Below, one piece after another: positions 17,837 through 48,272 of a stretch of DNA of 48,272 nt. Position numbers and translations under genes: made by a program. The DNA lies in IMG/VR virus record IMGVR_UViG_3300034104_006230, positions 1 to 48,272 of that record. One strand, given 5' to 3'. How positions within the stretch are numbered: the stretch's first letter is position 1; each line of letters starts with the position of its first letter. The notes below the pieces were generated by a model. It saw only the letters and a program-made list of their open reading frames with translations, did not search any database and was not told the DNA's origin. The DNA is from a virus.

Positions 17837-17839
17837 AAC

Positions 17840-17847
17840 TATTTATA
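17840..17847 (+). promoter_or_regulatory. Candidate late promoter TATTTATA
   Basis: TATTTATA ends 4 nt before the ATG at 17852; a leaderless transcript is possible. Confidence 0.45.
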
Positions 17848-17851
17848 AATT

Positions 17852-19464: not shown

Positions 19465-21207
19465 TTATCTTAAAGTATCTAAGCTGAATGTGCTCAAGCC
19501 ACTTACGTTGATCACACCGAAGTAACGGTTGTTAACCATTTTCTTCGCGTATCTTGTCATGATACCTTTGATTGGTGTCATGTTAAATGGATTGTACATT
19601 GTTGGTGTTAATTGTAAAGGTACATATGGTGCGTAGATATAACCAGCATCCAATAATGATTTACCTTTGTGACCGATCACAATTTTACCTGCTGGTAAAT
19701 ATGGATCACGGTATACTTGGTAACGACCAGCTAATGAACCTATTTTCTCAATACCCATGTTGTATTGATCTTGCTCAGGAGCAGCATTTGATACGTGGAA
19801 ATATTCTAAATCGTCGAATACTGCAGAAACTTCTGAAGATACTACGATCCAGTTTGCACCACCACGTAAAGTTGTTTTATGGATTTGAGCTGAAATTTGG
19901 TTGATTTTTGTAACCAAAGTTTGGTTCCAGTCTTTCTGAGTGTAACCCATAAATGGTGTTCCACCAGTTGCACCGTATTTCCACTCGTTGTAATCCCACT
20001 TAGCAGTCCAAGCAGCACCTTTTCTCAAGTCACGTAAAATTTCACGGTCAACTTCAGCAGCGATTTGCTCAGATAATAAAGCTGTTAATTCAGCTTCAGC
20101 ATCGATGTTATGGAACGCAGAAACGTCTTGTGCCAATTCTGGAGACCAGCTAGCTCTTAATTTTCTTTCAGTTACAGAAACTGTTACAGAAGAAAGATCG
20201 AAAGAAACCTCACCGATTTCATCTTCAAATTCTAAAGTATCATATACTCTGTAAGTTACTTTGAAGTTAGCTAATGCTAAATCGTTAGCACTGAAATCTG
20301 AAGCAGCAAAGCCACTTGTTGAACTATATGATTCTAAGTCAACGTTAAGGTAAATTAAACCTTCTTCGTCACAGATATCATTGAATCTGTTAAGACCAGA
20401 ACCACCTTTTCTACCATACTCAACAATACCTTTACCATATTTTTGAGTTACAATGTTAAAGTTTTTAACACCGTTGTTAGCAGTTGTGTTACCAGTGATT
20501 TCAACTTGTAGAGATGCTAAGAACTCTTCAGTATCCATTGCATTACCATTAACACCTACTAATTTACCTTGACCGTCTTTTGTGAAACCAGAAAGAACGA
20601 TAATTGCGCTAGATACAGACGCACCACTTAAAGCAGAAGCACTTGTAGTTGCTGCACCGTTTGCAAATGTTACGAAACCATGAGGGTTAACTTCAGCAGT
20701 TGTGAAAGATCCTTTTGAATAATCAAATAAACCTTGATCAGCTGCGTCTGAACCTTCGTAGAAACGATCGTAAAGACTTCTAGCACTTGTAGTACCAGTT
20801 TCATAACCTAATGTAGCAGCGTCACCGTTATTTGGCATACCAAATGGTGCTCTGTGTGCATCAGATTGTCTTTCTTGGATTTTAGGTACGAAGTAGAACA
20901 ATTTACCAATTGGTAAGTTCATAGCTTGTACAGAAACGATGTCATTCGCTAATAATTTAGAGAAAACACGACGGATGATAGGGAATACCACTGTCTCGAA
21001 TGATCCTGAAGAGTCAGAAACTGCTGCTTCATTGATTAAATAAGACGCTTGGTTTTCATACAACTGCGCGATGTTATCTTTTTGATGGCCGTCAAGACCT
21101 TCTAGGAAACCTAAGTCTTCCCATTTTTTAATGGTATCTTCTTTGATAACACGTAAGTGCTTAAGACCGATGTTACCAACCATACCTGATTCTAATAATG
21201 CTCCCAT
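19465..21207 (-). CDS. gp23: Major capsid protein, gp23-like
   Basis: 580 residues, close to T4 gp23 (521) in size and order. The N-terminus with TIKKWEDLGFLEGLDG and NIAQLYENQASYLINEA matches the gp23 pro-sequence style. It is followed by VVFPIIRRVFSKLLANDIVSVQAMNLPIGKLFYFVPK, cited as key pieces, which corresponds to the strongly conserved gp23 LLANDIVSVQ region. An inserted domain (about 150-300) is Gly/Ser/Ala-rich. The end contains a long conserved stretch with GKSLLDAGYIYAPYVPL. It forms the hexamers of the head shell. It follows the scaffold gene and ends in a strong terminator. No late-promoter octamer directly precedes it; transcription probably comes from the scaffold promoter. Confidence 0.95.
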   Translation of the reverse strand: MGALLESGMVGNIGLKHLRVIKEDTIKKWEDLGFLEGLDGHQKDNIAQLYENQASYLINEAAVSDSSGSFETVVFPIIRRVFSKLLANDIVSVQAMNLPIGKLFYFVPKIQERQSDAHRAPFGMPNNGDAATLGYETGTTSARSLYDRFYEGSDAADQGLFDYSKGSFTTAEVNPHGFVTFANGAATTSASALSGASVSSAIIVLSGFTKDGQGKLVGVNGNAMDTEEFLASLQVEITGNTTANNGVKNFNIVTQKYGKGIVEYGRKGGSGLNRFNDICDEEGLIYLNVDLESYSSTSGFAASDFSANDLALANFKVTYRVYDTLEFEDEIGEVSFDLSSVTVSVTERKLRASWSPELAQDVSAFHNIDAEAELTALLSEQIAAEVDREILRDLRKGAAWTAKWDYNEWKYGATGGTPFMGYTQKDWNQTLVTKINQISAQIHKTTLRGGANWIVVSSEVSAVFDDLEYFHVSNAAPEQDQYNMGIEKIGSLAGRYQVYRDPYLPAGKIVIGHKGKSLLDAGYIYAPYVPLQLTPTMYNPFNMTPIKGIMTRYAKKMVNNRYFGVINVSGLSTFSLDTLR

Positions 21208-22510: not shown

Positions 22511-23200
22511 TTATTTGCTTAGAAAAGAATCTAACCTCCCCATTAGTTTCTTCATTCTATCTTCAACAATAGGTTTTTCTTCAACAGTTTCGTTGAATTT
22601 ATCCTTATCGCTAATATCTTGAAATACATAAGCTCCGGGAGTAGATGGTGATGATACCAAGTCAAAACAAACCAATTCAAAATCATCTTGAACAATATTT
22701 TGTCCTTTAATTTGTTTTAATGACCCAACACCTCTTGATGAGATACCTAATGTAACACCGTTTAAAATTAACATAGCGGCTTGATCACCCTTACAGCTGA
22801 CAATACCCATTTTTTTCCAACCTGGAGATGTTAATATTTTAATTTTACCCATAAGGGTTTTACCATCCCACCATGTTTCTGTAATTGTGTGAGATACTCT
22901 ATCAAGATCGATAAGAGAAGAAGAAGGGTGATTTAATTCGTTAAGTGCAGACCCCTTTTTTATAATAGTTTGGTATTTTTCATTTTCCCTTTTTAAAAGT
23001 GTCTCAGGGTAAATTCTACCATTCTTATTTGGGGTATCGAATTTTTGTAAAACAGCATACAGAATAAGATCCTGATCGGTGTCCTTATTCTGTATTTCTG
23101 TTATAATATTTTTGTTTTTATAATCTTCGGGTGAGATGTGTCCAGCGTCATATTCTATTAAAATCCCCTTACCCGTTTCATTTGGTCCCAATACTTTCAT
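22511..23200 (-). CDS. gp21: Prohead core protease, gp21-like (peptidase U9/S77)
   Basis: 229 residues of the T4 prohead-protease family, the serine protease that cleaves scaffold and capsid precursors during head maturation. The catalytic His is H91 in ALNELNHP, and the nucleophile Ser lies in the LGISSRGVG segment (S154 or S155). Family context SHTITETWWDGKTLMGKIKIL and FELVCFDLVSSPSTPGA also match. Length is close to T4 gp21 (212). It precedes the gp22-like scaffold gene and has its own promoter-like octamer (23223-23230). Strong call. Confidence 0.93.
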   Translation of the reverse strand: MKVLGPNETGKGILIEYDAGHISPEDYKNKNIITEIQNKDTDQDLILYAVLQKFDTPNKNGRIYPETLLKRENEKYQTIIKKGSALNELNHPSSSLIDLDRVSHTITETWWDGKTLMGKIKILTSPGWKKMGIVSCKGDQAAMLILNGVTLGISSRGVGSLKQIKGQNIVQDDFELVCFDLVSSPSTPGAYVFQDISDKDKFNETVEEKPIVEDRMKKLMGRLDSFLSK

Positions 23201-23244: not shown

Positions 23245-23673
23245 TCAAATCTTACATTTATTAAAATTAAATAATGTTTTATCTGTTAAACAGTTATCTA
23301 TAGACGTTTGAATAAACGTTTTTAATAAAGTTTTAATGTTTTGTGATTTTACATCGAAAAAAATATCTACAAATAAAGTGACTTCTAGATTCATAAAAGA
23401 CCTTTTATCTGCTTTTATACCTTTTGTCCTAATATCAAGATCTACAATACTTTCTTTTTTGAAATAACTATTAAAATCATATGACCTAATATGCTCTTTT
23501 AAAGTTTTTCGCGCAGACATTATTGTCCTGTCATAATCTAATTCTTCATTTTCAGGCGCCACCCAAGCATTAAATTTTAAATAAATGGTTTTTAAATTTT
23601 TATAATCTACGGTACCATAACCGATTTTTACTTCTTTATAATCCCCTAAAGGAATATATTTTCCAATTTTCAT
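23245..23673 (-). CDS. Hypothetical protein
   Basis: 142 residues with alternating beta strands and helices (IGKYIPLGDYKEVKIGYG; MNLEVTLFVDIFFDV). One Cys pair near the C-terminus. No signal peptide or membrane segment; no recognised motif. It lies between the bS21 gene (opposite strand) and the prohead protease, so head assembly is a reasonable guess from context only. T4 itself has the small genes 67 and 68 near this place, but this protein shows no visible resemblance to them. Confidence 0.55.
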   Translation of the reverse strand: MKIGKYIPLGDYKEVKIGYGTVDYKNLKTIYLKFNAWVAPENEELDYDRTIMSARKTLKEHIRSYDFNSYFKKESIVDLDIRTKGIKADKRSFMNLEVTLFVDIFFDVKSQNIKTLLKTFIQTSIDNCLTDKTLFNFNKCKI

Positions 23674-23753
23674 TAACGTTTACATAATTTTTTTATTTTA
23701 TGGTGTAGTATAATAATAAGAAATAATTTTTAATTTTCCAAAAAATTGGATTA

Positions 23754-23761
23754 TATTTATG
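23754..23761 (+). promoter_or_regulatory. Candidate promoter TATTTATG for bS21 gene
   Basis: TATTTATG (one mismatch to TATTTATA) ends 4 nt before the ATG at 23766. The overlapping TATATTTA also fits the Bacteroidota -7 element TAnnTTTG with one mismatch. No Shine-Dalgarno sequence is visible. Confidence 0.4.
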
Positions 23762-23765
23762 AAAT

Positions 23766-23960
23766 ATGATTATAATTGATTTAAAAAAAGAAAAAAACTT
23801 GGAATCAGCATTAAGAACTTATAAACATAAAGTTCGAAATGTAAAACAAGTTGAGAATTTGAGGGCGAGACAAGAATTTGTTAAACCTTCAGTAAAAAGG
23901 CGCGCTGAGATTTCTAAAGCGATCTATGTTCAACAAAAGAAAAATGGTCTTGATAATTAA
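23766..23960 (+). CDS. rpsU: Ribosomal protein bS21 (phage-encoded)
   Basis: 64 residues, the normal size for bS21. Key features match: a hydrophobic start MIIIDLKKEKNLESALR, the RTYKHKV segment, then LRARQEFVKPSVKRRAEISKAI with the R-R-x-E-(Y/F)-x-x-P-S-x-K-R-R pattern of the family. bS21 sits at the mRNA exit of the small subunit near the anti-Shine-Dalgarno and is readily exchanged, so a phage copy could bias ribosomes to phage mRNAs. It is the only plus-strand gene inside the head block and converges tail-to-tail with the 23957 gene (4-nt overlap). Confidence 0.9.
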   Translation: MIIIDLKKEKNLESALRTYKHKVRNVKQVENLRARQEFVKPSVKRRAEISKAIYVQQKKNGLDN

Positions 23961-23972
23961 TCAAGACCATTT
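23942..23972. terminator. Bidirectional hairpin over two convergent stop codons
   Basis: A perfect 13-bp inverted repeat (arms 23942-23954 and 23960-23972, loop AATTA) covers the last codons and stops of the bS21 gene and the opposite gene. T-rich sequence follows on the minus strand (TTCTTTTGTT) and, less so, on the plus strand. It likely terminates both. Confidence 0.7.
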
Positions 23973-24706
23973 CTTAGTTCTATTAATCTAAAGTAATTTA
24001 ACCTGGAGGCTTCTTTACTATTAACCTCCTCTTTTACCTTATTTAATTTATTATTCATTTCATTATCTGTAGATTCAGTTAAAATAGACTCAATTTTTGA
24101 ATTAATGTTTTCTTTTAATTCGTTTGTTTTTACAATAACATCCTCATTAGTTAAAGACATTATATTTTTAAATTCAGTTTGCTGCTCTTCACTTAATGTA
24201 TTACCATAAAGTACATTAAAATTATTAGCTAAAACCCCATATAACAAATTCTCATTCATTGTGAACGGTACAATATTTTTTTCTTCAGTTGAAGCTTGCT
24301 TCTTTTTTGTTAAATGCTCTATTAATTTTTTTCTAGCAACTACCTTATTTTCAATATTAGATAAAGTATCTTGTGTAAATAATTGATCCAAAGATTCGTA
24401 TAATTCATTACCCTCAGTTTCAACTTCACCTAGTTTCGTGTTTAATTCTTCACAAAAAACTAAAAGCTCATTGTTGATAGATTGGCTATTCAGTAAGTTC
24501 TCAAGACCCTCAACGTATAATTTTGCGGTTTCTTTATCTTCAATGTATTTGTTTTCCATTTCTTCATAAAACAGATACATCTCTTTAAATTTTTTGTTTT
24601 CAGTTATTGATTTAAGAATATTCTTTAGTTCAGTTCTATTCTTTTGTCCGTAAGACTCAGTTAATTTTTTTATTAACTTACTTTTAATGATGCCAATTTT
24701 GCTCAT
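23957..24706 (-). CDS. Hypothetical helical protein between portal and protease
   Basis: 249 residues, predicted almost wholly helical and rich in Glu, Lys, Asn and Leu, with coiled-coil-like segments (ELYESLDQLFTQ, ELKENINSKIESILTES). No Cys-based motif, signal peptide or membrane segment. It starts 2 nt after the portal gene stop, so it is co-transcribed with it. Location downstream of the portal and near the protease fits a prohead core or internal head protein, many of which are helical. This is context, not homology. Confidence 0.55.
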   Translation of the reverse strand: MSKIGIIKSKLIKKLTESYGQKNRTELKNILKSITENKKFKEMYLFYEEMENKYIEDKETAKLYVEGLENLLNSQSINNELLVFCEELNTKLGEVETEGNELYESLDQLFTQDTLSNIENKVVARKKLIEHLTKKKQASTEEKNIVPFTMNENLLYGVLANNFNVLYGNTLSEEQQTEFKNIMSLTNEDVIVKTNELKENINSKIESILTESTDNEMNNKLNKVKEEVNSKEASRLNYFRLIELRNGLD

Positions 24707-24708
24707 TT

Positions 24709-26505
24709 TTATTGATTTAAAATATCTTTTATTTTATTTTCTATTTCATAAATATTCTTCTTAGCTTTCTCAAGATCAAATAAATCTGAAATATCTGTAC
24801 TTTCACCTAAAAGGTTGTTCATTCTAATTTTTCTGGTTTCACTTAATGGTTCACCGCCAGCGTCTCCACCGCCCCCAGATGTTGGTGGTGGCATATCCAT
24901 ACCACCGTCTTCAGCTCCTGCAGCTGCTTCCGCATCAATTTTTTGTCTTTCCTCTTCCGGAATACCATATTTAGAATCAACCTCATCAAATATACCAGAT
25001 CTAGGAATAATTTTAGCGGTGTTAGTTAATTCAGTACCCATTGCTCTCTCTAAACGTTGTTGTTGAAGATCTAGGATAACTTCATTATCACTCATACCTA
25101 AGATATTTTTCTTAGCCCAAGTATGTGACACAGGTAAGATACCAACTTGAGATTGATCTGAAGTGGCATCTTTGTAAAGAGTAACTTTTTCTTTCCATTG
25201 TTCAATCTTTAATAGATCCGCTTGAGACGATGGGTTAGTTAGACCTAATGTAAAGTTTTCTAATTCGTCTTCTAAACCTAAAAGATATAAGTGAATTAAT
25301 GCAATTTTATTTAACTCTTGTATTAATGATTTCTGAACTCTATTGATTGTTCTAGCAAAACGAATATCCATCAATGCTAGATTCTTACCATCACCAACAA
25401 CTTCTTCAAAACCTAAGAACGCTTTAGGAATACGAAGAGCGGCTAATAACTTCTTTTGAATGTATTCAATATCCGCAATCTCGCCTAAGTTTTGTGCACC
25501 AGCTAATGTTTCAATTGGACTAGGTGCTGCTGGATCACGAACAGGTATGAAGTAATCCTGGTCAATGGCCATTTGATTATATCTCATATCAACTTGACCA
25601 TTTCTTTGATCTACTACAGTATCTCTTTTAAATTTACTTGCAACACGTTGTACGTACGCTTCAATATCTTTATCATCCATGTTACCCACAAACACCTTAA
25701 ACACTCTTCTTTCTGGTGCTCTTGATGTTCTATAAATTAACATAGCATCTTCAGCTAAAAGTAATTGTTTCCAAATTCTTCTAACCTTATCTAACATGGA
25801 TGTACCATAAGGAAGTTTTCTATCGTCGCCTAATAATCTAAAGTGAGCAACTTCCCATGATTGGAATTCCATATCCTTATTAGTCCAACTAAAGCGTAAT
25901 TCTCTAATTGGCATTTTTATTTCTCCCTGGTTTGGTGTTCTAGTCTTTGCACCTTCCCATCTTTCTATTTCAATGTTTGGTAATTGTTGACAACCGATAA
26001 CACCTTTTTCTGGATCACTTTTTAAATACACAAAGTTGTCACCATACTTACATAGGTTTCTAGCCCACATTTGTAGGTTAGTGTTAATATCTAATCTATT
26101 TTCGAATAAGTCAGTTAAAATATCTTTAACTCTATTAGACTCAGAATAAACACTTAATATTGTTCCCTTTTCTGATATGGTTGTTGATTCTTCAGAATAA
26201 ATGTCTAATGCTGCTGAGATTTCAGGAGTAAATTCCATTGATTCAAAATCATAATATGCAGCTAATCTATTTGGTTCATAATAAACCGATTGATTGTATA
26301 ACGAATTATCTAATTTCGCCCACTTATCAAAAAGAAACTGAGATTGCTGCGCCTGTAATTTAGCCTTTTCAAATTCAACTGGATCATCAGTTTTCAGCAA
26401 TTCTTCTCTAGAAAAATTAAATGATGGTGGATTTTGGTCACCTCTGTTCTGAAAACCAAATATTTTGGTTAATTTTTGAAAAACGGTCAAGTCTTGATTT
26501 GCCAT
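24709..26505 (-). CDS. gp20: Portal protein, gp20-like
   Basis: 598 residues, close to T4 gp20 (524). Recognisable family pieces include FTPEISAALDIYSEEST near residue 78, MWARNLCKYGDNFVYL, VAHFRLLGDDRKLPYGTSMLDKVRRIWKQLLLAEDAMLIYRTSRAPERRVFKVFVG (in parts), and ILGMSDNEV. The C-terminus has a Gly-rich acidic tail ending in a helix. The portal dodecamer forms the unique vertex that DNA enters and leaves. The gene follows terminase and precedes the protease block, as in T4-like phages. The ATG is 4 nt after a promoter-like octamer. Confidence 0.95.
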   Translation of the reverse strand: MANQDLTVFQKLTKIFGFQNRGDQNPPSFNFSREELLKTDDPVEFEKAKLQAQQSQFLFDKWAKLDNSLYNQSVYYEPNRLAAYYDFESMEFTPEISAALDIYSEESTTISEKGTILSVYSESNRVKDILTDLFENRLDINTNLQMWARNLCKYGDNFVYLKSDPEKGVIGCQQLPNIEIERWEGAKTRTPNQGEIKMPIRELRFSWTNKDMEFQSWEVAHFRLLGDDRKLPYGTSMLDKVRRIWKQLLLAEDAMLIYRTSRAPERRVFKVFVGNMDDKDIEAYVQRVASKFKRDTVVDQRNGQVDMRYNQMAIDQDYFIPVRDPAAPSPIETLAGAQNLGEIADIEYIQKKLLAALRIPKAFLGFEEVVGDGKNLALMDIRFARTINRVQKSLIQELNKIALIHLYLLGLEDELENFTLGLTNPSSQADLLKIEQWKEKVTLYKDATSDQSQVGILPVSHTWAKKNILGMSDNEVILDLQQQRLERAMGTELTNTAKIIPRSGIFDEVDSKYGIPEEERQKIDAEAAAGAEDGGMDMPPPTSGGGGDAGGEPLSETRKIRMNNLLGESTDISDLFDLEKAKKNIYEIENKIKDILNQ

Positions 26506-26509
26506 ACTA

Positions 26510-26517
26510 TATAAATA
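26510..26517 (-). promoter_or_regulatory. Candidate late promoter TATTTATA
   Basis: On the minus strand TATTTATA ends 4 nt before the portal ATG. Confidence 0.5.
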
Positions 26518-26549
26518 CTATTCTATTTAATCTAATTAATTTTTAAGGA

Positions 26550-28340
26550 TTAATCAACCCTTTTTTTTGACCCAAATAACCATGAATATTGTGTATATTG
26601 TTCTTTAGCTGGTTCAGAATTACCACTCTTAGCATATGGTGAACTATCTATCTGCATCATACCAACTTGATCAAAAGATGATCCATATGAATAAACATTA
26701 CTTTGCGGTGCTTCATAAGTTCTTTCAGACATTACCCAAGATTCTAACATTGCTTTATTCTGTTGTTCATTTCTTTTTAATTGTGTAAAAGAAATATCAC
26801 CAGCATACATTGCAATCGCCATACTCATGATTCCGTCATCATGGGCTCCTTTCATGTGGTTAGGCTTACCATTTATGTAAACAAAAGTGTTTAGTTCATT
26901 TAATAATCTATGTGATCTAATAATAAAGTCATGTCTTAATTGTTCTTCAAAACATGATACAATTTGTGTTCTTTTATTATTGAAATTTATACCAGGTATT
27001 TTTTCTAATGCTTTATGGTTATATTCCCACATGTTTTTGGTATTAACACCATCAATAAACAAATCTTTATAATTCATTTCTTGTAATTTTCTTGATGTTG
27101 CAACACCCATACCACCGGTAATATCAATAACAATAAATGCGTTATATAATACCCCCCATTTATATGCAATTGATGCTAAATCGTCTGGCGGTATTTTACC
27201 TATATATTCTAATACTTGTTCTCTATCATCAAAATCAATAATATTAATTGCTGAAAAGTCTTCACTATCACCTCTACTAACGTCAACACCCATAATATAT
27301 CTATGTCCTTCTAATGGTTCTTTCCATTGCCATAAAGTACCTTGCATATATTTCTCATTTGGTGCTTTAACCATTGTCTTAGCGATTTTCTCCATAGTTT
27401 CTGATGGTATAACACTATCACCAGATCCTAAGAAGTCACATTCAAGTTCTTGAGCAATTTTTCTTTTATCATACTTGAATTTTTTTGACATAGACTCAAA
27501 CCAACTTGAATATGGTTGATAACCATCATCCATGTATTGTGCATATTTGGTTAAACTATATTCAGGATCGTCTAATGTTATCTCATCGTCATTGTATTGT
27601 TCTCTATTCAACATGTAATGAACAATATCAGGAACCTTTAACCATTTTAAATCTTTGGTGTAACGAGGATCTTTAAACCATCTTAAATCTGTAATATGAA
27701 AATCGTTAATACCTCTAATAGCTTGTTCATATACACCGTAATAAATTGGGTCATATCCATTTGGTGTTGAAATTAATATAATCTTACCACCGGTAGATAA
27801 TGATGCCATAGATGCAGCCCAAAAGTCTTCTCCGGCCTCAATATATGCGGCCTCATCAAATACAAGTACTGTTGGTGTAAAACCACGAAGAGCGTCAGCA
27901 GATGTTGCTACCGCTTTAACCTCAGAACCATTATTTAACCTAAATCTACTTTCAGAGTTCTTATCTGGGGAAAAACCAACATTAATCCATTCTGGCCACT
28001 GATCTAAAAAATGTCTAACCTTATTAGCCATCTCAATTGCTGTGTCTCTTTTGTTAGCAATAATCAATACTCTTTCAGGATTTTCTGGTTTTGCTAATTG
28101 TAATTTTTTTGATAACCAAGCGGCTGTTACTGTTGTAACACCAGCCTGTCTATATTTTCTAGTAATATTTTCGTTATATGTTTCGTAATCTTTTAACAAT
28201 TGAATTTGATCTGGAAATAATTCCAGCGGAACATATTTCTTCTGAGTATTATCATATGTTTGTAGATAAGTTCTCAAAGCATATGGTGTATCTTTAATAA
28301 CACGAGCATACTCTTTTAGTTGTTCTATTTTGTTGTTCAT
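26550..28340 (-). CDS. gp17: Terminase large subunit, gp17-like
   Basis: 596 residues, near T4 gp17 (610). ATPase half: KYRQAGVTT (62-70) at the Walker A place, TVLVFDEAA (157-165) as Walker B with D162-E163, and a coupling ISTPNG motif at about 190. Nuclease half: YIMGVDVSRGDSEDFSA, FIVIDITGGMG and HDDGIMSMAIA carry the acidic residues of the RNase H-like site. The P-loop has Val where T4 has Lys (RQLGKTT), as in other terminases where a basic residue at the loop start replaces it (here K62 or R64). It packages DNA through the portal and cuts concatemers. Confidence 0.95.
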   Translation of the reverse strand: MNNKIEQLKEYARVIKDTPYALRTYLQTYDNTQKKYVPLELFPDQIQLLKDYETYNENITRKYRQAGVTTVTAAWLSKKLQLAKPENPERVLIIANKRDTAIEMANKVRHFLDQWPEWINVGFSPDKNSESRFRLNNGSEVKAVATSADALRGFTPTVLVFDEAAYIEAGEDFWAASMASLSTGGKIILISTPNGYDPIYYGVYEQAIRGINDFHITDLRWFKDPRYTKDLKWLKVPDIVHYMLNREQYNDDEITLDDPEYSLTKYAQYMDDGYQPYSSWFESMSKKFKYDKRKIAQELECDFLGSGDSVIPSETMEKIAKTMVKAPNEKYMQGTLWQWKEPLEGHRYIMGVDVSRGDSEDFSAINIIDFDDREQVLEYIGKIPPDDLASIAYKWGVLYNAFIVIDITGGMGVATSRKLQEMNYKDLFIDGVNTKNMWEYNHKALEKIPGINFNNKRTQIVSCFEEQLRHDFIIRSHRLLNELNTFVYINGKPNHMKGAHDDGIMSMAIAMYAGDISFTQLKRNEQQNKAMLESWVMSERTYEAPQSNVYSYGSSFDQVGMMQIDSSPYAKSGNSEPAKEQYTQYSWLFGSKKRVD

Positions 28341-28343
28341 ATA

Positions 28344-28351
28344 TATAAATA
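28344..28351 (-). promoter_or_regulatory. Candidate late promoter TATTTATA
   Basis: On the minus strand TATTTATA ends 3 nt before the terminase ATG. Confidence 0.5.
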
Positions 28352-28378
28352 CAAAAAGTGGTCGAATTCGACCACTTT
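28350..28378 (-). terminator. Palindromic intrinsic terminator
   Basis: A perfect 24-bp palindrome (28355-28378, centre GAATTC) is followed on the minus strand by TT-G-TATTT. It lies 20 nt after the stop of the 28399 gene and overlaps the terminase promoter-like element region. Confidence 0.7.
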
Positions 28379-28398: not shown

Positions 28399-29691
28399 TT
28401 ACTTGTCTGATAGATCGATTCCAAGATCTCCTAAAAAGTCGCTCAAATCATTATCGTCAATATTATCTGAGCTTTTATTCAGTTCTTCATCGAATTGTCT
28501 CATCGATTCTCGATAGTCATAATCATTTATTTCCCCATTAATTATATCATATAAATGTCCCATTAATCTCTTACCTGATTCTGATCTAGATAAAATCTCT
28601 CTAACAAAAACTAAAAATTCTTTAGCTGGTTTAGCTACTATTTTTTGAAAGAATATTAATTGTAAACCAACCTTATCTTCATCAGTTATAGTTTCGTCTG
28701 GAAAACTATCTCTAATAATGTCCCATATCGCAGGACCCAATCTTAAATCCCAAATTTCTTTCTGTAAGGTATCCTCAAGTTCCATAACTTGAGCAGCAAT
28801 ATTTCTATCTTTTGGTTGACCATGCAATGCTGCAATGACTTCATAAGTACCCTTCATCAATTCGTGAACCAATATTGGAAAATTAATTCCGGTTGCAACA
28901 ACTCTTGGTGGTGTTTCATTAGGAAAAACTCTTTCTTTACCGCCAGCCATAGGTGTGCCGCCTCCACCACTTAATCCAAGACCACTATTACCCATTTGCC
29001 ACAACATTGAATCAGCAGATGACATTATCGCACCATATAAAGTTGCGATATTTTCTTCACCCGTAATTTGTATTAATTTTTCTGTAGCATAATTGAACAT
29101 ATAATGACCTTTAGAAGATGCACCAGCCATCATAGCGTTGATCATTCTTCTTTTAGCCCTTTCTAATGTTAGATCCTCTAAATCATCAAGTATTTCTTTA
29201 TCCAACTCAATTTCTTCGGGTTCCATTTCTCCGGGTTCAGACTCTTTAAATCCCTCCGAACTTGGAATTTGAATTGAGGCTTCATAAACAATATCTCCTT
29301 CCTCAACACCAAGTTCCTTCATTACTAATTCAACAGCTAACCTTTCTAATTCTCTCTTGTGTGTTCTTTCAATACCCTCAACTCTTCTTTGTACTTCCAT
29401 CATAGTACTTAAAACACTATTTAAAGTATTCGGTGATAATGTTGGTAATCCAGTATATCTTCTAACCTTTTCAACAATTTGACGATATCTGTTTGATGCT
29501 AATAATTCTTCGAAATTGCTATGCGGTTCCGCTACGTCTTTAGGGAAGTTTACTTTTTTAAAAGAGTGTTGTTTGTTTGCCAAATCACGTTCCACATCAG
29601 GATGCGGTCTGTCCGGCGAGTCATATGTCATCGGCATTTCATTAAGATTTTCTTGTATTCTTAATAATAGCTCTTTTTTTGTAATTTTCAT
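28399..29691 (-). CDS. Hypothetical head-region protein
   Basis: 430 residues. The first 150 residues are helical; an acidic linker (about 165-195) precedes a domain with RAKRRMINAMMAGASSKGHYMF, a Gly-rich loop (GLGLSGGGGTPMAGG) and ATGINFPILVHELMKGTYEVIAALHG. The HELMK segment is not a complete HExxH zinc site. The C-terminus is acidic and ends DLGIDLSDK. It lies upstream of terminase on the same strand and is separated from it by a terminator. I believe related proteins occur in uncultured marine T4-like phages, without known function. Confidence 0.55.
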   Translation of the reverse strand: MKITKKELLLRIQENLNEMPMTYDSPDRPHPDVERDLANKQHSFKKVNFPKDVAEPHSNFEELLASNRYRQIVEKVRRYTGLPTLSPNTLNSVLSTMMEVQRRVEGIERTHKRELERLAVELVMKELGVEEGDIVYEASIQIPSSEGFKESEPGEMEPEEIELDKEILDDLEDLTLERAKRRMINAMMAGASSKGHYMFNYATEKLIQITGEENIATLYGAIMSSADSMLWQMGNSGLGLSGGGGTPMAGGKERVFPNETPPRVVATGINFPILVHELMKGTYEVIAALHGQPKDRNIAAQVMELEDTLQKEIWDLRLGPAIWDIIRDSFPDETITDEDKVGLQLIFFQKIVAKPAKEFLVFVREILSRSESGKRLMGHLYDIINGEINDYDYRESMRQFDEELNKSSDNIDDNDLSDFLGDLGIDLSDK

Positions 29692-29698
29692 AGCCTAA

Positions 29699-30355
29699 TT
29701 ATTCTGCCGCCATTTTCATTGACGTCATTTTTTTTATTTTAGCTTTCGGATCAGGGTTTACTACTGGGTTTTCTTCTGGATTTCTAAACGGACTTCTTCT
29801 TGGGTCTTTTTCTGGTCTATCTACCCCTGGTTTTTCTCTTGGAGGGGCGTCAACATCAGGAGCATCTTTTTCAGGTGCTTCTTTTTCACCAGCGCTAACT
29901 ATACTATCAAAACTCATAAATTCAGGAATTTTAGGCATACCCTTTTCTTCTAATTCAGAAGATTCATTAATTTTTTCTTTAACTAAAGAAACCATATCAC
30001 CTTTTGTAACTAAACTATGGTAATTAGAATTAACTGTATTTTCAACAAACTCATTTAGATTTTTGAAAACAGGTTTTACCTTTTTAGATTTTTTAATTTT
30101 TCCTACAGGAATAACTTCATCTTCTTTAACCTCAATATCGTTTTTATTTACATTTGGATCTTTTAACGCTGTGTTTAATGCAGCAACATCTTTAGGATCT
30201 TTACTATTATAAACAGTTTTTGTTGTTGTTACTGTTTGAGCTTCTTTCAAAACCTTATTTGCAAACTTTTCTAATTGCTTATCATTAAAATTAACTAAGG
30301 TTTTTTCTGAAAATCCTTCAGACATTAGTTTTTGTATTAATTGTGCTCTTCTCAT
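29699..30355 (-). CDS. Hypothetical protein with Pro/charged C-terminus
   Basis: 218 residues. The N-terminal 40 residues are helical (RRAQLIQKLMSEGFSEKTL); the middle is Lys/Val-rich; the last 70 residues are Pro/Asp/Arg-rich and disordered, ending KKMTSMKMAAE. It overlaps the upstream gene by 4 nt and starts the 3' portion of a four-gene minus-strand run (31817 to 28399). No domain is recognised. Its disorder and position suggest a head-assembly or structural role, not an enzyme. Confidence 0.55.
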   Translation of the reverse strand: MRRAQLIQKLMSEGFSEKTLVNFNDKQLEKFANKVLKEAQTVTTTKTVYNSKDPKDVAALNTALKDPNVNKNDIEVKEDEVIPVGKIKKSKKVKPVFKNLNEFVENTVNSNYHSLVTKGDMVSLVKEKINESSELEEKGMPKIPEFMSFDSIVSAGEKEAPEKDAPDVDAPPREKPGVDRPEKDPRRSPFRNPEENPVVNPDPKAKIKKMTSMKMAAE

Positions 30356-30753
30356 TTCAATTTAAATTTTATTTCTTCGTTAATTAATCTAAGCCCTTTG
30401 GTTGCTAATTTAGTTGTAACACTTTCTAATTCTTCAGCAAAATGAAAAGAAACCCTTATCGGTCTTTCTTCAGCCTCCATATCAAAAGCTTCCCATCCTA
30501 AAGCAACAATCCCATCAACAGCGTCGATTACACCAAAATAATCAGAATTTTGTACTAGTTCAAGCTTTAAATCGCAATTTTTTAATAAGCCAACTAAATC
30601 AATATCTTCTATTTCCGGTGGTATTGCTCTACCTGCAGACGGGATTATAAACCACTCTTCTACTAATGTGTCCGGGTCTTTACCAAAGATAAATTCATAT
30701 TGTCTTTGGCCCTTATAGTCTTGACCCAGTTCATTAATATAGAGTAGATACAT
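30352..30753 (-). CDS. Hypothetical conserved-looking phage protein
   Basis: 133 residues, compact alpha/beta: MYLLYINELGQDYKGQRQYEFIFG, a WFIIPSAGRAIPPEI loop, DLVGLLKNCDLKLELVQNSDYFGVIDAVDGIVALGWEAFD in outline, and RVSFHFAEE. The density of such patterned residues suggests a folded, conserved protein, and I believe similar ones occur in marine T4-like phages. No catalytic motif is visible. It shares start/stop overlaps with both neighbours (4 nt with 29699, 1 nt with 30753), so it is co-translated in the operon. Confidence 0.55.
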   Translation of the reverse strand: MYLLYINELGQDYKGQRQYEFIFGKDPDTLVEEWFIIPSAGRAIPPEIEDIDLVGLLKNCDLKLELVQNSDYFGVIDAVDGIVALGWEAFDMEAEERPIRVSFHFAEELESVTTKLATKGLRLINEEIKFKLK

Positions 30754-33508: not shown

Positions 33509-33516
33509 TATGTTTG
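33509..33516 (+). promoter_or_regulatory. Bacteroidota-type -7 element for the clpC-like gene
   Basis: TATGTTTG matches TAnnTTTG, the -7 consensus of Bacteroidota housekeeping promoters, 18 nt before the ATG at 33535. The -33 position has TTTT rather than TTTG, so the promoter may need activation. Confidence 0.5.
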
Positions 33517-33534
33517 CTAATAAATCAAAAAGTT

Positions 33535-35553
33535 ATGCCAGTAGACTTCGAATACGAGGAAAATCAAAGAACAAATCCGAAAAACAGAAAAAGTACAACA
33601 GGTACACCTATTCTAGATAATTTTTCTAGAGACCTAATTAAATTAGCTCAAGAAGGTAAGATTGATCCGGTTGTGGGTAGGGATAAAGAAGTTAAAAGGA
33701 TTGCACAAATTCTTTCAAGAAAGAAAAAAAATAACGCAGTTATCGTTGGGGATGCTGGTGTTGGTAAATCGGCACTAGTTGAGAAATTAGCCCTAATGAT
33801 ATCTAAGGGCGACTGCCCAACCAATCTATTGGACAAGAGGGTTGTTTCCCTTGATTTAACATCTCTTGTTGCTGGTACAAAATATCGCGGACAATTTGAA
33901 GAAAGAATCAAAGCAATCTTACACGAACTTCAAGAAAATCCAGATGTTGTTGTGTTTATTGATGAGTTACACACAATGGTTGGTGCGGGTAATGCTAGTG
34001 GTTCTATGGACGCGGCTAATATTCTAAAACCAGCATTAGCAAGAGGTGAAATTCAATGTATCGGTGCCACAACATTCGATGAGTTTAAAAAACATATTGA
34101 AAAGGATGGTGCTTTAGTTAGACGTTTCCAAAAGATTATTTTGAAAGAACCAACGGAAACTGAAACAATTGAAATTTTAAATAACTTACAAAAATCATAT
34201 GAAGACTATCATAAAGTTACATATGGTGAAGAGGTAGTAGAAACAATTGTAAGATTATCTGGAAGGTATATGACTGATAAACAATTTCCAGATAAAGCAA
34301 TTGATGTTTTAGATGAACTTGGGTCAGAAAAAAGAGTAATAACTAAAGTTCCAGAAATTATCGATAGATTAAAAAAAGAAATCGAGGATATTAGAAATAA
34401 AAAGATCGAAGTTGTTAAAGCACAAGTTTATGAACAAGCAGCAAAACTAAGAGACGAAGAAAAAAAGGTTTTAAAGAAACTCGAAGACGAAAAGAACAAG
34501 TGGTTGGATAAACAAAAAGGTAATTTGATTCCAGTAACTGTTGAAGACGTTTATGATATGGTTTCTAATATTACTGGAATTCCAATAACTAAAATTGATA
34601 ATACCGAGGTAAGTAACTTACTTAATTTGGAAAATGAATTATCAAGTAAAGTGATTGGTCAAGATGATGCAATTTCTATCATATCTAAAGCAATTAGAAG
34701 AAATAGGGTTGGTATCAAAGACAATAAAAAACCTATTGGGTCATTTATCTTCATAGGATCTACCGGTGTTGGTAAAACGTATTTAGCTAAAAGTTTAGCT
34801 CAATTAATATTTGGGTCGGAAGAAAAGGTTATTCGTGTAGACATGAGTGAATACATGGAAAAACATGCAGTGTCTAGATTGATCGGTTCTCCTCCAGGTT
34901 ATGTTGGATATGATGAGGGTGGTCAATTAACTGAAAAAGTTAAAAACAACCCATTCTCAGTTATCTTATTTGATGAAATCGAGAAAGCACATAAAGACGT
35001 GTTTAATATATTACTTCAAATATTAGATGAAGGACACCTTACAGATTCATTCGGTAGAAAAGTTAATTTCACCAACACTTTGATTATTATGACATCTAAT
35101 GTTGGCGCGAAAAAAGTGTCAGAATTCGGTAACGGTGTAGGCTTTTCAACAATGAGTAGTCAAACACAGCAATATGAGGTTAAAAAAACAATGATACAAA
35201 AATCATTGAAGCAGCAATTTAACCCAGAGTTTTTGAATAGAATAGATGATATTATTTTATTTAATTCTTTAAATGAAGAGTCGCTTAAAAAAATTATTGG
35301 CTTGGAAATCAATAAGTTATCAGACAGATTAAAAGAGAAAAAATATCTTGTTTCCTTTGATGATTCTGTTTTGAATGAGATTATTCACAGAAATAAAGAA
35401 GAGGCTTATGGTGCTAGACCAATAAAAAGAATTATACAGTCACTTTGTGAGGACTTTTTAAGTGATCAGATTTTGATGGGTGCGATTAAGGAAAATAAGC
35501 CTGTTAAATTAATTTATAAGGAAAAAATGGTCTTAAAAACGAAAATCATATAG
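33535..35553 (+). CDS. clpC: ClpC-like AAA+ unfoldase lacking the N-domain
   Basis: 672 residues from ATG 33535, preferred over an in-frame TTG at 33514 that overlaps the -7 element. Two AAA+ modules: Walker A GDAGVGKS (K78) and Walker B FIDELH (D143, E144), then Walker A GSTGVGKT (K414) and Walker [11 protein letters not shown] (D480, E481). A short middle region has the UVR-like [13 protein letters not shown]. Normal ClpC has an about 150-residue N-domain, absent here. The V-G-F tripeptide (535-537) after SNVGAKK is where ClpC docks on ClpP. So it could engage host ClpP with altered substrate choice. Arranged opposite hsp20. Confidence 0.92.
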
Positions 35554-36709: not shown

Positions 36710-37915
36710 ATGGTATCCTTAAAAGATTTAGAAAAATATTATCAAGATGGTTTGCTATTAAAACAAACACATCCAAAATATGATTTAACTATTTGGAATT
36801 ATTCTCCAAAAGTTCAATATGAAAGATTGTGGGATGAAATCACTATCCAGTGTAGGGGATTAGTAACAAATTCAAATGGTGAAATAGTCGCTAGACCATT
36901 TAAAAAATTCTTCAATTATGAAGAACACAAGCCAGAAGAAATACCAAACGAAAATTTCGAAGTTTATGAAAAGATGGATGGATCATTAGGTATTCTTTTT
37001 TATTATGAAGAAGAATTAACTGATGAAAGAAGATATAACATATGGTTCAATAACAATTATGAAACGGGTATGGAAAGATTCTTTGATCCAAACAATTTAC
37101 CTGATTTTGATAACCCATATTATGAACCAACACCAAAAACTAAGGGTGAATGGATAATTGCTACAAGAGGTTCATTTACATCTCCACAATCAATTAAAGG
37201 TAGAGAACTATTGGAGAAATATGACTACAATAGATTAGCTAAAGATTATACTTACTTGTTTGAGATTATCTACCCAGAAAATAGAATAGTTTGTAACTAT
37301 GATTTTGAAGATTTAATTTTACTTGGTATGATACATACCAAAACCGGTGACGAGGTCAACATACATAACGATGATAATCAAGATATTAGATTAAAAAATC
37401 TAATAAAAAACTTAAACCTCAAAATTGTTACATTATATAAAACATGGGGTGAGGGGTATGATTTACTTAAAGAAGAAATTAGCAACGATAAAGAAGGATA
37501 TGTGATTCGTTTTAAAAACGGATTTAGAATGAAAATAAAAGGTGAAGAATATAAGCGTCTTCATAGAATATTAACCAATATTTCAAATAGGGATATTTGG
37601 GAATATTTGAAAGATTATAAACCTTTTGATGAGATTTTAGATAAAGTACCTGACGAATTTTATGATTGGGTAAAAAACACTGCAGATGCTCTAGTAATAA
37701 AATATGAAGAATTAGAAAAAAAATCGTTAATAGATTTTGCTAGAATTATAAAAAGCTGTAATATTGACGATAGAAAATGTTTTGCATTGGAAGCATTAAA
37801 ATGTAATAACCCTTCCATTTTATTTTCGATGCTAGACAAGAAAGATTATAGAGATATAATCTGGAAAATTATTTACCCAACTTACTCAAAACCCTTTAAA
37901 AAAGATGAAAACTGA
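36710..37915 (+). CDS. rnlA: RNA ligase, T4 Rnl1-type
   Basis: 401 residues, similar to T4 RnlA (374). The nucleotidyl-accepting lysine lies in the motif KMDG (K88, D90, G91) within YEKMDGSLGILFY. Upstream QCRGLVTNSNGEIVARPFKKFFNYEE matches the family stretch that precedes motif I, and EGYVIRFKNGFRMKIKGEEY carries the later ligase motifs (Glu and K-x-K). Joins RNA 3'-OH and 5'-PO4 ends. T4 uses it with Pnkp to repair tRNA cut by host anticodon nuclease; the kinase-like gene just upstream suggests the same here. It overlaps the next gene by 11 nt. Confidence 0.9.
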   Translation: MVSLKDLEKYYQDGLLLKQTHPKYDLTIWNYSPKVQYERLWDEITIQCRGLVTNSNGEIVARPFKKFFNYEEHKPEEIPNENFEVYEKMDGSLGILFYYEEELTDERRYNIWFNNNYETGMERFFDPNNLPDFDNPYYEPTPKTKGEWIIATRGSFTSPQSIKGRELLEKYDYNRLAKDYTYLFEIIYPENRIVCNYDFEDLILLGMIHTKTGDEVNIHNDDNQDIRLKNLIKNLNLKIVTLYKTWGEGYDLLKEEISNDKEGYVIRFKNGFRMKIKGEEYKRLHRILTNISNRDIWEYLKDYKPFDEILDKVPDEFYDWVKNTADALVIKYEELEKKSLIDFARIIKSCNIDDRKCFALEALKCNNPSILFSMLDKKDYRDIIWKIIYPTYSKPFKKDEN

Positions 37916-44742: not shown

Positions 44743-45002
44743 TAGTTTATTTTAATGTATTTTGGTGTTTTCCAAGGGTCTGAATAATATTCACCACTCT
44801 TCCATTTTTTTATTTTAAATCTTGCCATATCTTCGGAATAATAAACAATATTATCATCATACCATTTATCAAACCCAACTTTTCTCATTGGCAAATACAA
44901 TGAATAACCAGTTCCATCATATTGTATTATTTTAATTTTATAACTGGTGGTACAAGATGAAATAATTAAAAACAAAACAAATAGTAATAATATCTTTTTC
45001 AT
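44742..45002 (-). CDS. Small lipoprotein
   Basis: 86 residues. Signal peptide with lipobox I-S-S-C (Cys17) followed by TTSYKIKIIQYDGTGYSLYLPMRKVGF and an aromatic C-terminus (YYSDPWKTPKYIKIN). Short strands suggest a small beta domain. It abuts both neighbours (1-nt overlaps), placing it in one transcript with the cohesin-like protein and the barrel. No family recognised. Confidence 0.65.
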   Translation of the reverse strand: MKKILLLFVLFLIISSCTTSYKIKIIQYDGTGYSLYLPMRKVGFDKWYDDNIVYYSEDMARFKIKKWKSGEYYSDPWKTPKYIKIN

Positions 45003-47287
45003 TAATTTATTTTTATTTTTAATTGTGTACCATTTTTATTCACAGCATCTGTGGTTGATATTGATGTTAATCCCAATAGTCCTTGAATACCAATTTTTGG
45101 TATAAATGTTATTTTATATTCTGTTGTTTTATCTAATAATGTTGATCCATCAGTAATCAACGATCCTAATGTAATGTAATAACCTTTGTTCACCCCAAAA
45201 TTTGTTGGATTACCTTTTGTTATAAAATCAACCTTTTGAAATTCTAAAGCTGTATTATCATAGTTTAATTGAAATTGTGTACCAACTAATTCTTGTTGTA
45301 ATGGATCTACAGATATTGTTATTATAACTTTACCACCAACATTTTCACCCATTAAAGATGCATTAATTTGATTAGAAACTGTATTAGTTGTTAAACTCAT
45401 AGTTCTATATGAATTAGTAGCGACACTACTTACAGTTTGTTGTGCTGAATGGGATAAGTTTACATCACCTAACCAAGTTACACTAATATTATATGTGTTA
45501 TTTAATGATCCCAATGTAAATGGTATAAGGTTACGAGTTGAATTAAATTTAGTCCCCCAATTGCTGGTTGTTATTGCATCATAATCTGATTTATTATATA
45601 ATTTCATCAAATATGTTAATGCTGTGGATTGTGAAAGTGTTTGAACACCTGTTAAATGTTGTAATAATTTGTATGTATCTGCTTCATTGAAGACACCATT
45701 ACCATCTACATCCGCATTTAAATATTGAATACCATTTGTTAACCCTAATCCTGTTTGATTTCCAAATATTCCATTATCCGCCAATTCTTTAAACGCTAAA
45801 AACACATCTGTTACCGTTACAATACTACTATATAATGTGTTTAATTCCGTTTGATTTGAATGTGTTAATTCCATCCCATGTGGTTTATACCCCATTATTG
45901 GTGAGAAAGTAAATTCAGCTCTCGTTCCATACCAACCATCTTGTAATCTTAATTGAGATTGAAATGTTGATGAGGTTATTTTACTTGTCAAATTACCAGG
46001 CATTATATAAGTTTTCCAAAAACCACTTACATTATTAACAGTAACCGGCCCATCGTATATATCAAATAATTTAATCGATGTTACATTATTTGGAGACACT
46101 CCTGTTCCATCAAATTCTCTTTCGTCTATTAGTAATTGATGCCCACCTAAATTTGCATCATATGGATTTATTATTGCCCATTCAACCTGCCCAGCAGATG
46201 TTGTAGCTCTAATCCCACCATTTGAAACTTTTGCAGTATCTAATAAACTTGTCAAATCCACCTTACCCAAACCACTTAATTGTCTAGCCGTTCCGTTTAC
46301 TATATTCCAAGTATTATTTGTATATGTGTATCCTTTTGCCGAAAATTTAGTTTCATCAACATTACCACCAAAATCAACATTGAATGATGCTCTTAATACT
46401 TCTCCATTTGAGTGAGTTACACTATTAGTATAGAATTCAGTAAATGTTGCATCATCGGGGTTAGTCCAAGTTCCAAATTCAACTACATAAGCACAACTAA
46501 AGTTATTAGGTAAATCATTCCATTGAGAACCACCACCCCATTTTGTTACTGCGTAATCTTCATTACCACTATTGTTTGGTTCACCACCTGCCCAGTTATT
46601 GTATTGACCTACTATGTTTCCGTTTGTTTGTCCGTTTGATGTTTTGATTAAAGTTCCTGCTTCAGGTCCTGCATCAATTCTCCATTGTCCTTCAACTGCT
46701 TCATCCGTTAATGCAAACCAAATACTAGCTTGCGGAACATTGGCAAATATAAAAGCATCTTCCGAAGCAGATGTTATCGTTACCAAATAACCTTGCTGAC
46801 CTTTGAATGTTTGTTGAGATGATAGTGTTCTTGCATTTGTATAAGTTGCTCCGCTTGATATTGGTCTATAAAAGTGTCCATTAACACCATTGTAAAAATA
46901 ACCAACAGGATTTACAGTTGCTGCAACTGATAATTGAACATTACCAACCACTGAACCTGTGTTTATTTTTAATGATGCTAATGCAGTATTAATATCTGCC
47001 ATCGTTCCCAATACCACTAAACGAGTTTTATTACCCGTTAGTGTAAATCCACTTGCTGCAATTAATCCTCGTGTATCGTTAAGGTAAAAGGTGGTATTTG
47101 TCGATGGATTTATTAAACTGATTGATGCCAGTAAGGTGGATGTCGCACTAAATCCACTCAATACAAATCCACTTCCATCTTGTGCAGTTGTGGATGGTAT
47201 AAACGATTTAGAGTCCGGGGCAGATACACTCTGTCCGAACCCTAAAAATGAGATTAGTAAAAAACATATTACTAATAATTTCTTCAT
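45002..47287 (-). CDS. Exported protein with C-type lectin, dockerin-like and cohesin-like parts
   Basis: 761 residues from ATG 47287 (the TTG at 47296 overlaps the upstream stop). Signal peptide ends LGFG before Q19. Residues about 127-273 are a C-type lectin-like domain: TYTNARTLSS, SIWFALTDEAVEGQWRI, WAGGEPNNSGNEDYAV, WNDLPNNFSCAYVVEF. About 490-548 is dockerin-like: VTVTDVFLAF and a calcium loop DVDGNGVFNEAD (526-537), then LLQHLTG. About 637-761 is cohesin-like: VGGKVIITISV, GTQFQLNYDNTALEFQKV. A cohesin-like and a dockerin-like part in one phage protein is unusual. Adhesion or surface assembly is a plausible role. Confidence 0.65.
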   Translation of the reverse strand: MKKLLVICFLLISFLGFGQSVSAPDSKSFIPSTTAQDGSGFVLSGFSATSTLLASISLINPSTNTTFYLNDTRGLIAASGFTLTGNKTRLVVLGTMADINTALASLKINTGSVVGNVQLSVAATVNPVGYFYNGVNGHFYRPISSGATYTNARTLSSQQTFKGQQGYLVTITSASEDAFIFANVPQASIWFALTDEAVEGQWRIDAGPEAGTLIKTSNGQTNGNIVGQYNNWAGGEPNNSGNEDYAVTKWGGGSQWNDLPNNFSCAYVVEFGTWTNPDDATFTEFYTNSVTHSNGEVLRASFNVDFGGNVDETKFSAKGYTYTNNTWNIVNGTARQLSGLGKVDLTSLLDTAKVSNGGIRATTSAGQVEWAIINPYDANLGGHQLLIDEREFDGTGVSPNNVTSIKLFDIYDGPVTVNNVSGFWKTYIMPGNLTSKITSSTFQSQLRLQDGWYGTRAEFTFSPIMGYKPHGMELTHSNQTELNTLYSSIVTVTDVFLAFKELADNGIFGNQTGLGLTNGIQYLNADVDGNGVFNEADTYKLLQHLTGVQTLSQSTALTYLMKLYNKSDYDAITTSNWGTKFNSTRNLIPFTLGSLNNTYNISVTWLGDVNLSHSAQQTVSSVATNSYRTMSLTTNTVSNQINASLMGENVGGKVIITISVDPLQQELVGTQFQLNYDNTALEFQKVDFITKGNPTNFGVNKGYYITLGSLITDGSTLLDKTTEYKITFIPKIGIQGLLGLTSISTTDAVNKNGTQLKIKIN

Positions 47288-47288
47288 A

Positions 47289-48272
47289 TTACTCAACGAT
47301 TAAATCAACTTTATTTCCCTTCGCATCAACAGCATCAGATAAAACAAAGTAGAATAAACCGGCAGTATTTGTTAAAGTTGTTTTTGGTGTAAAAATTAAT
47401 TTATACGGTGTACCAATTTTAATTCTTGCAGCTTTAGTTTGATCAATAGAACCAAATGTTAATCTGCTACCTTCATGTGTTGTGAAGTTAGTTATTGTTG
47501 ATCCCGCGTCAAATATTACATTATCCAAACTTAATTTTGAATCATCATAATTCATAATAACTTGCAAGCCCGCCAATTCTGCTTTTGTTAAAGTTGTTGT
47601 TAACACCACTTTACCATTTTCTAATGTTGATGACACACCTAGTTTAGCAGTTTCAACAGCTTCTGTTTTATAAGCCATAGATGTTGACATACTCATATTT
47701 TTTATTGTGTTCACCTCACCATTCACTGAATTAGTATATAATCCAGAACTTATTCTACTAGCAATTACAGCAGGATCGGAAGAGTGTGACCAGTTTAAAT
47801 CACCACCCCAAGCAAATACTGCATGTACTTCTTTTATTGGTGTATCAATTAATACTCTATTCTTAACCACACCATCTAACCAACTTTGATTTAATAAACC
47901 ACTATACCATCTTACTGATGTTGAGGTTGATGTTGGGATCATCGCTGTTGATGACATATTTTGCCCCATCACATGTGCAAATAACGCGTATGAATCCGCT
48001 TCACCAAATGTATTTCCACTAAGTGAGACTTTACCAACTTTCTTTTCTAACGCTGGTAATGTAAAGAAATTTGCGGTCCCGCTAATATCTGTTTGTGAAT
48101 GTCCTAAAAATGCTTTATACGCATCTGATACCGTCACAATATTATTCATCCAAGCTTTAGTAAACGCCGCTCCAACAAATACACCAACCGAATCACCTAC
48201 TTTAACCTGTGTTGTGAAAAGAGCCTCACCACTAGCATCTAATGGTAATTGTGCGATAGGTGTTTGTGTCCA
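47289..48272 (-). CDS. Second dockerin/cohesin-like exported-type protein, partial (start outside window)
   Basis: Open on the minus strand to the right edge; the first visible codon is TGG at 48272 and 327 residues are seen. It parallels the 45002 gene: NIVTVSDAYKAFLGH and FGEADSYALFAHVMG correspond to VTVTDVFLAF and FNEADTYKLLQHLTG; VFAWGGDLNWSHSS corresponds to VTWLGDVNLSHSA; and GLQVIMNYDDSKLSLDNVIF corresponds to GTQFQLNYDNTALEFQKV. The Asp-rich calcium loop has decayed to VSLSGNTFGEAD, so calcium binding is doubtful. Tandem duplication is likely. It ends 1 nt before the ATG at 47287. The N-terminal part, perhaps with a lectin domain, is off the window. Confidence 0.6.
   Translation of the reverse strand, partial: WTQTPIAQLPLDASGEALFTTQVKVGDSVGVFVGAAFTKAWMNNIVTVSDAYKAFLGHSQTDISGTANFFTLPALEKKVGKVSLSGNTFGEADSYALFAHVMGQNMSSTAMIPTSTSTSVRWYSGLLNQSWLDGVVKNRVLIDTPIKEVHAVFAWGGDLNWSHSSDPAVIASRISSGLYTNSVNGEVNTIKNMSMSTSMAYKTEAVETAKLGVSSTLENGKVVLTTTLTKAELAGLQVIMNYDDSKLSLDNVIFDAGSTITNFTTHEGSRLTFGSIDQTKAARIKIGTPYKLIFTPKTTLTNTAGLFYFVLSDAVDAKGNKVDLIVE

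Follow-up and report, generated by a model that had tools for sequence, protein, structure and literature searches.

Why does a phage encode a ribosomal protein in the middle of its head genes and on the opposite strand, and what might this protein do to the ribosomes of its host? Among the ribosomal proteins encoded by viruses, bS21 is the most common one. The locus that raises the question lies in a virus record of 48,272 bases, which was analysed at its full length and is called the window here.

A bS21 gene facing against the head block

A first, sequence-only reading of the window had described the gene as a full-length bS21 with a conserved core, and this was confirmed by profile and structure matches. 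The encoded protein matches Pfam Ribosomal_S21 (PF01165; E=1.3e-10, 41.3 bits vs. a cut-off of 27) over the entire model (positions 2–54 of 55), it also matches PHROG 21469 'ribosomal protein S21', and its top match among solved structures is bS21 of Flavobacterium johnsoniae (7JIL chain z, residues 1–63). It contains the PSVKRR core and retains Tyr54, a position that is aromatic in nearly all colinear relatives (Y in 69/72, H in 2/72). The core KPSV..R....KA.Y is almost invariant in phage and host bS21 alike, and the divergence between both is mostly found in residues 5–30, i.e., in the N-terminal helix, with the C-terminal core and Tyr54 being kept. F. johnsoniae bS21 shares family, length, start residue, Tyr54 and C-terminal core with the phage protein but differs in the N-terminal helix and the C-terminal tail. 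Among named phages no nucleotide match to the window was found. In the same attempt to find named relatives bS21 matched only unannotated huge-phage or metagenome records with less than 60% identity, and the best named match of the terminase large subunit (terL) reaches 29%, in Microcystis and Flavobacterium phages.

The gene occupies a gap of approximately 283 bp. The genes on both sides are on the minus strand and have no known function, and the head block to which they belong is T4-like, with the order terL, portal, 249-aa gene, bS21 (on the plus strand), 142-aa gene, protease, 403-aa gene and major capsid protein (MCP) gene (Table 1). It was correctly noticed before that bS21 stands alone on the plus strand between portal and protease; one small gene of unknown function lies on each side. 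Although opposite in strand to the head block the gene is intergenic, and the only coding overlap are 4 bp formed by the stop codons of bS21 and the 249-aa gene. This arrangement, with bS21 on the opposite strand of the terL/portal/protease/MCP block and flanked by two hypothetical genes, is identical in the window and in 80/80 nearest viral loci, wherever their sequence extends. In further loci bS21 is present in 133/149, and 14 of these 149 loci end before or near the bS21 site.

Table 1. Features of the bS21 locus and of the surrounding head genes in the window.
Feature	Position	Strand	Basis
Major capsid protein (Gp23)	19465..21207	-	Pfam
Prohead protease (Peptidase_S77)	22511..23200	-	Pfam
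Gene of unknown function, 142 aa, divergent from bS21	23245..23673	-	
TTTG-N20-TATTATTA, possible promoter for the 142-aa gene	23712..23745	-	similar to TTTG/TAnnTTTG, the sigma pattern of Bacteroidota
Late-promoter-like element TATATTTATG, core TATTTAT at 23754-23760	23752..23761	+	conserved, oriented; promoter function inferred
bS21 (rpsU homologue), 64 aa; ATG at 23766, stop ends at 23960	23766..23960	+	Pfam, PHROG, PDB match
Hairpin of a bidirectional terminator, stem of 13-15 bp, covering the stop codons of both genes	23940..23974		hairpin analysis, relatives
249-aa gene of unknown function, ending in ...RNGLD, convergent with bS21	23957..24706	-	
Portal protein (Portal_T4)	24709..26505	-	Pfam
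Terminase large subunit (terL)	26550..28340	-	profile matches

Such a locus is known. For jumbo myoviruses of freshwater Bacteroidetes (clades a–e) it was shown that bS21 lies 'on the reverse strand' within the block of terL, portal, protease and MCP, with a hypothetical gene on either side, that Tyr54 is conserved and that bS21 is transcribed highly and late alongside the structural genes; a substitution of the host protein in the ribosome by phage bS21 was proposed (Chen et al., 2022; PMC9723584). The window adds one more phage to this group. It is alike in bS21 placement, aromatic Tyr54, host phylum and jumbo relatives and nothing fundamental differs; the genomes of Chen et al. have sizes of approximately 293–331 kb and the record analysed here has 48 kb, with related contigs reaching 251 and 287 kb. 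Gene, position, orientation, host phylum and late expression were thus already published, and replacement of host bS21 by phage bS21 is not new either, as it is the hypothesis of that study. What is added here is modest regulatory detail, i.e., the Shine-Dalgarno (SD) contrast, an oriented element shared with structural genes, a dual-coding terminator and one loss of the gene.

Start signals, late element and terminator

The absence of an SD from the phage gene and its contrast to the host rpsU had been noticed from the window alone; the former was borne out and the latter turned out far stronger in the wider comparison. No SD core is present in the 20 nt upstream of bS21 in the window, and none was found before any of 56 selected genes of the window. 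The motifs GGAGG, AGGAG, GGAG, GAGG and AGGA within 22 nt of the bS21 start were found in 0/88 distinct phage upstream regions, whereas 46/47 bacterial rpsU loci, retrieved with an identical query, carry GGAGG in that interval, often as AAAGGAGG, the only exception being a Prolixibacteraceae. The phage bS21 gene obeys the SD-less rule of its own genome, and it is the host rpsU that is the exception within the host. F. johnsoniae autoregulates its bS21: bS21-deficient ribosomes recognise the extended SD of rpsU, starting faster on this SD-bearing mRNA and slower on SD-less mRNAs (McNutt et al., 2023; PMC9976891). This extended SD, typical of autoregulated Bacteroidota rpsU (most Flavobacteriales), was not found in phage bS21 genes. 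As SD-less genes are the rule throughout this phage, the missing SD of bS21 need not have been selected for an escape from host feedback. The comparison of phage and host rpsU in this respect is not reported in the accessible text of Chen et al. (2022; PMC9723584) or McNutt et al. (2023; PMC9976891). The contrast between nearly every sampled bacterial rpsU and no phage copy offers a direct and cheap test in F. johnsoniae.

Next to the lack of an SD, a late-like octamer had been pointed out before the start codon, and it is found as TATTTATG (23754–23761) exactly 4 nt ahead of the ATG. Counted in 60 nt upstream in distinct sequences and compared with shuffles, TA[TC]TTAT precedes bS21 of close relatives in 37/38 cases (shuffle mean 4.8, maximum 9), the portal gene in 79/79 (10.8), terL in 68/70 (5.4), the protease gene in 69/69 (5.7) and the 403-aa gene in 62/68 (4.9), and upstream of these genes the reverse orientation almost never occurs. 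The element is absent upstream of the genes at 28399–30753 and in all 66 distinct upstreams of the major capsid gene, which may be read from the upstream 403-aa gene or via another promoter. In the wider bS21 set it is present in 67/88 upstreams (within 16 nt in 60/88), showing that more distant phages vary. By position and orientation TA[TC]TTAT is probably a late promoter. In the accessible main text of Chen et al. (2022; PMC9723584), which contains no mention of promoters, a late element shared with the structural genes is not described.

The T4 late consensus TATAAATA was tried as late element and rejected, being not enriched in the window (12 vs. 10.8 expected); in contrast to T4-type late promoters, TA[TC]TTAT is found at the similar place instead. 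By bare count TATATTTA is not enriched in the window either, so that the motif becomes visible only when its place and direction with respect to start codons are considered. At -48 of the 249-aa gene a further occurrence was disregarded as it falls inside the portal coding sequence, and a scan for sigma-70-type promoters gave fewer matches than shuffles and was uninformative.

In bS21, portal and terL the element mostly begins 11–13 nt before the ATG. In the window it lies approximately 4–6 nt before the ATG of the portal gene (26506–26520), terL (28341–28352), a plus-strand gene (17839–17851) and bS21 (23752–23761). This short spacing suggests that late mRNAs could be near-leaderless; for bS21 the start is fixed by homology and a transcript from the late element would therefore carry almost no leader. 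At 23752–23780 the window has an additional ATG, out of frame and 7 nt ahead of the bS21 start, opening a reading frame of six codons that overlaps this start and is found in the window copy and not in most relatives. On the other strand, the TTTTTGG and TTAT-T boxes before the 142-aa gene are conserved in 78/92 relatives. A second box, TATATTTG, at -25 to -27 of bS21 is found in 26/38 distinct upstreams (relatives L010–L062 and others); it matches the -7 pattern of Bacteroidota, TAnnTTTG, perfectly and is missing from the window's own copy.

At its 3′-end the gene shares the terminator with its convergent neighbor, and similar hairpins are found at the equivalent place in most relatives. bS21 takes its NGL end from the left arm of the hairpin, whose right arm, on the other strand, supplies that of the 249-aa protein, the tails in the window being ...KNGLDN and ...RNGLD, respectively. 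Both tails change together between phages (AATGGACTT/AATGGACTT, AACGGTCTT/AACGGTCTT and KDGL/KDGL among relatives L010–L081). The NGL codons of both genes are identical in 20/32 cases compared to a mean of 11.5 and a maximum of 19 for shuffled partners, a test that is only moderately decisive as these codons vary little. Moreover, if bS21 has no NGL-type tail the hairpin is absent (median score 6 vs. 16; shuffle median 6, 95th percentile 10). In some phages that have no hairpin the neighbor still has an NGL-type tail, and the tail of the neighbor may thus have come first. The conserved C termini of phage bS21 were suggested to be important for ribosome substitution (Chen et al., 2022; PMC9723584). 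Since the terminator encodes the NGL tail, its conservation need not reflect ribosome binding, and the terminator is a sufficient alternative explanation. This is a warning that the conserved tail of phage bS21 could be set by a constraint at the DNA level. A dual-coding terminator is not described in the accessible main text of Chen et al. (2022; PMC9723584), which does not mention terminators.

Descent, selection and one loss

Searches based on bS21, portal and protease yielded 214 loci, with the same contigs viewed several times, and these resulted in 93 distinct bS21 proteins. The comparison with host rpsU that the sequence-only reading had proposed places the phage proteins in one clade apart from the bacterial ones: in a tree of 92 phage rows and 32 bacterial bS21 a single branch with a support of 100 splits both, the 64 columns being too few to resolve anything beyond this split. 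The median pairwise dN/dS of phage bS21 is 0.13 and, as judged from these comparisons, the protein is under purifying selection.

Only one contig, IMGVR_UViG_3300046787_000722 (L147 and, in a second view, L242), covers the site and has no bS21. It has the protease, 142-aa, 249-aa and portal genes, the bS21 site comprises only 108 bp, and the strand of bS21 has no TA[TC]TTAT there. The portal tree places this contig within the group of bS21-bearing phages to which the window belongs (28 rows, support 100), making a loss the simpler reading. The gene is therefore either dispensable or located elsewhere in that phage; the contig has only 12 kb. At the empty site (L147:8571–8680) the 249-aa gene ends in a terminator, GGTCTAGA..TCTAGACC followed by T8.

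These data bear on two alternatives that do not involve the ribosome of the host. The clean loss in one lineage and the self-contained cassette on the opposite strand would fit a passenger gene without benefit, comparable to a moron; as every other locus that spans the site has retained bS21, with the low dN/dS given above, this is highly improbable. A basic peptide that is packaged into the virion or acts in head assembly would explain the constant place in the head block, and packaging was raised by Chen et al. (2022; PMC9723584). However, the family core and Tyr54 are held by purifying selection, and the opposite strand, the own promoter-like element and the terminator argue against membership in the head operon, so that we consider also such a role improbable.

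A possible role of phage bS21 in the host ribosome

As a whole, the locus is best explained by a vertically kept phage bS21 that is expressed from a late cassette, enters the 30S subunit, keeps the anti-SD occluded and escapes host feedback, an explanation to which we give about an even chance. The gene would have been acquired once from a Bacteroidota host and inherited vertically since then, forming a self-contained late cassette with its own late promoter and a shared terminator that faces against the head operon. Late in infection, phage bS21 would take the place of host bS21 in the 30S subunits, whereby we infer both entry and timing. With Tyr54 and the C-terminal core being kept, the anti-SD would stay tucked away and the ribosome would be competent for SD-less mRNAs; the phage's own mRNAs, which are SD-less, would be suited to such bS21-replete ribosomes. 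The host rpsU is translated mainly by bS21-deficient ribosomes via its SD. As the phage gene is without that SD, phage bS21 could be made free of host feedback. As ribosomes fill with phage bS21, host rpsU would no longer be translated and the pool would shift to the phage protein. That the feedback loop of the host is in this way turned against the host, converting the pool to phage bS21 so that the host protein need not be destroyed, is a tentative idea and remains somewhat doubtful.

Viral bS21 is widespread, and for the bS21 of pelagiphage HTVC008M, likewise encoded by a myovirus, entry into E. coli ribosomes was shown (Mizuno et al., 2019; PMC6375957). These ribosomes had approximately 5% activity in vitro, which by analogy would speak against the explanation given above, albeit across phyla. 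The host of HTVC008M does not belong to the Bacteroidota and its bS21 is of alphaproteobacterial origin (PMC6375957), suggesting an acquisition independent of that in the window.

The sequence-only reading had also supposed that phage bS21 could change which mRNAs start. In its simplest form this does not hold, since Tyr54, which stacks on the anti-SD, is kept and occlusion of the anti-SD is probably preserved. Chen et al. (2022; PMC9723584) put forward a specialised ribosome, in which the diverged N-terminal helix, located at the mRNA entry, would favor phage over host mRNAs late in infection. The divergence in residues 5–30 with a kept C-terminal core and Tyr54, a pattern that they likewise describe, and the late co-expression of bS21 with the structural genes are in line with this model, and a helix that is unlike those of the hosts at many positions would fit selectivity more than plain replenishment. 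However, no mRNA feature is known that such a ribosome could recognise, phage and host mRNAs are both SD-less, and the N-terminal positions may differ by mere descent. We regard selectivity as less likely, and a plain replacement of host bS21 that keeps the anti-SD occluded as the preferred explanation.

Finally, the window encodes further proteins of interest. A double AAA ATPase resembling ClpA/ClpB is found at 33514–35553 (plus strand); Clp genes were noted near phage bS21 (Chen et al., 2022; PMC9723584), and removal of host bS21 by a phage protease was the subject of speculation (McNutt et al., 2023; PMC9976891). A protein of the T4 RNA ligase 1 family (PF09511) is encoded at 36710–37915 (plus strand), and a protein of 764 aa at 45002–47296 (minus strand) has C-type lectin and weak cohesin matches and is possibly a tail or adhesion protein.
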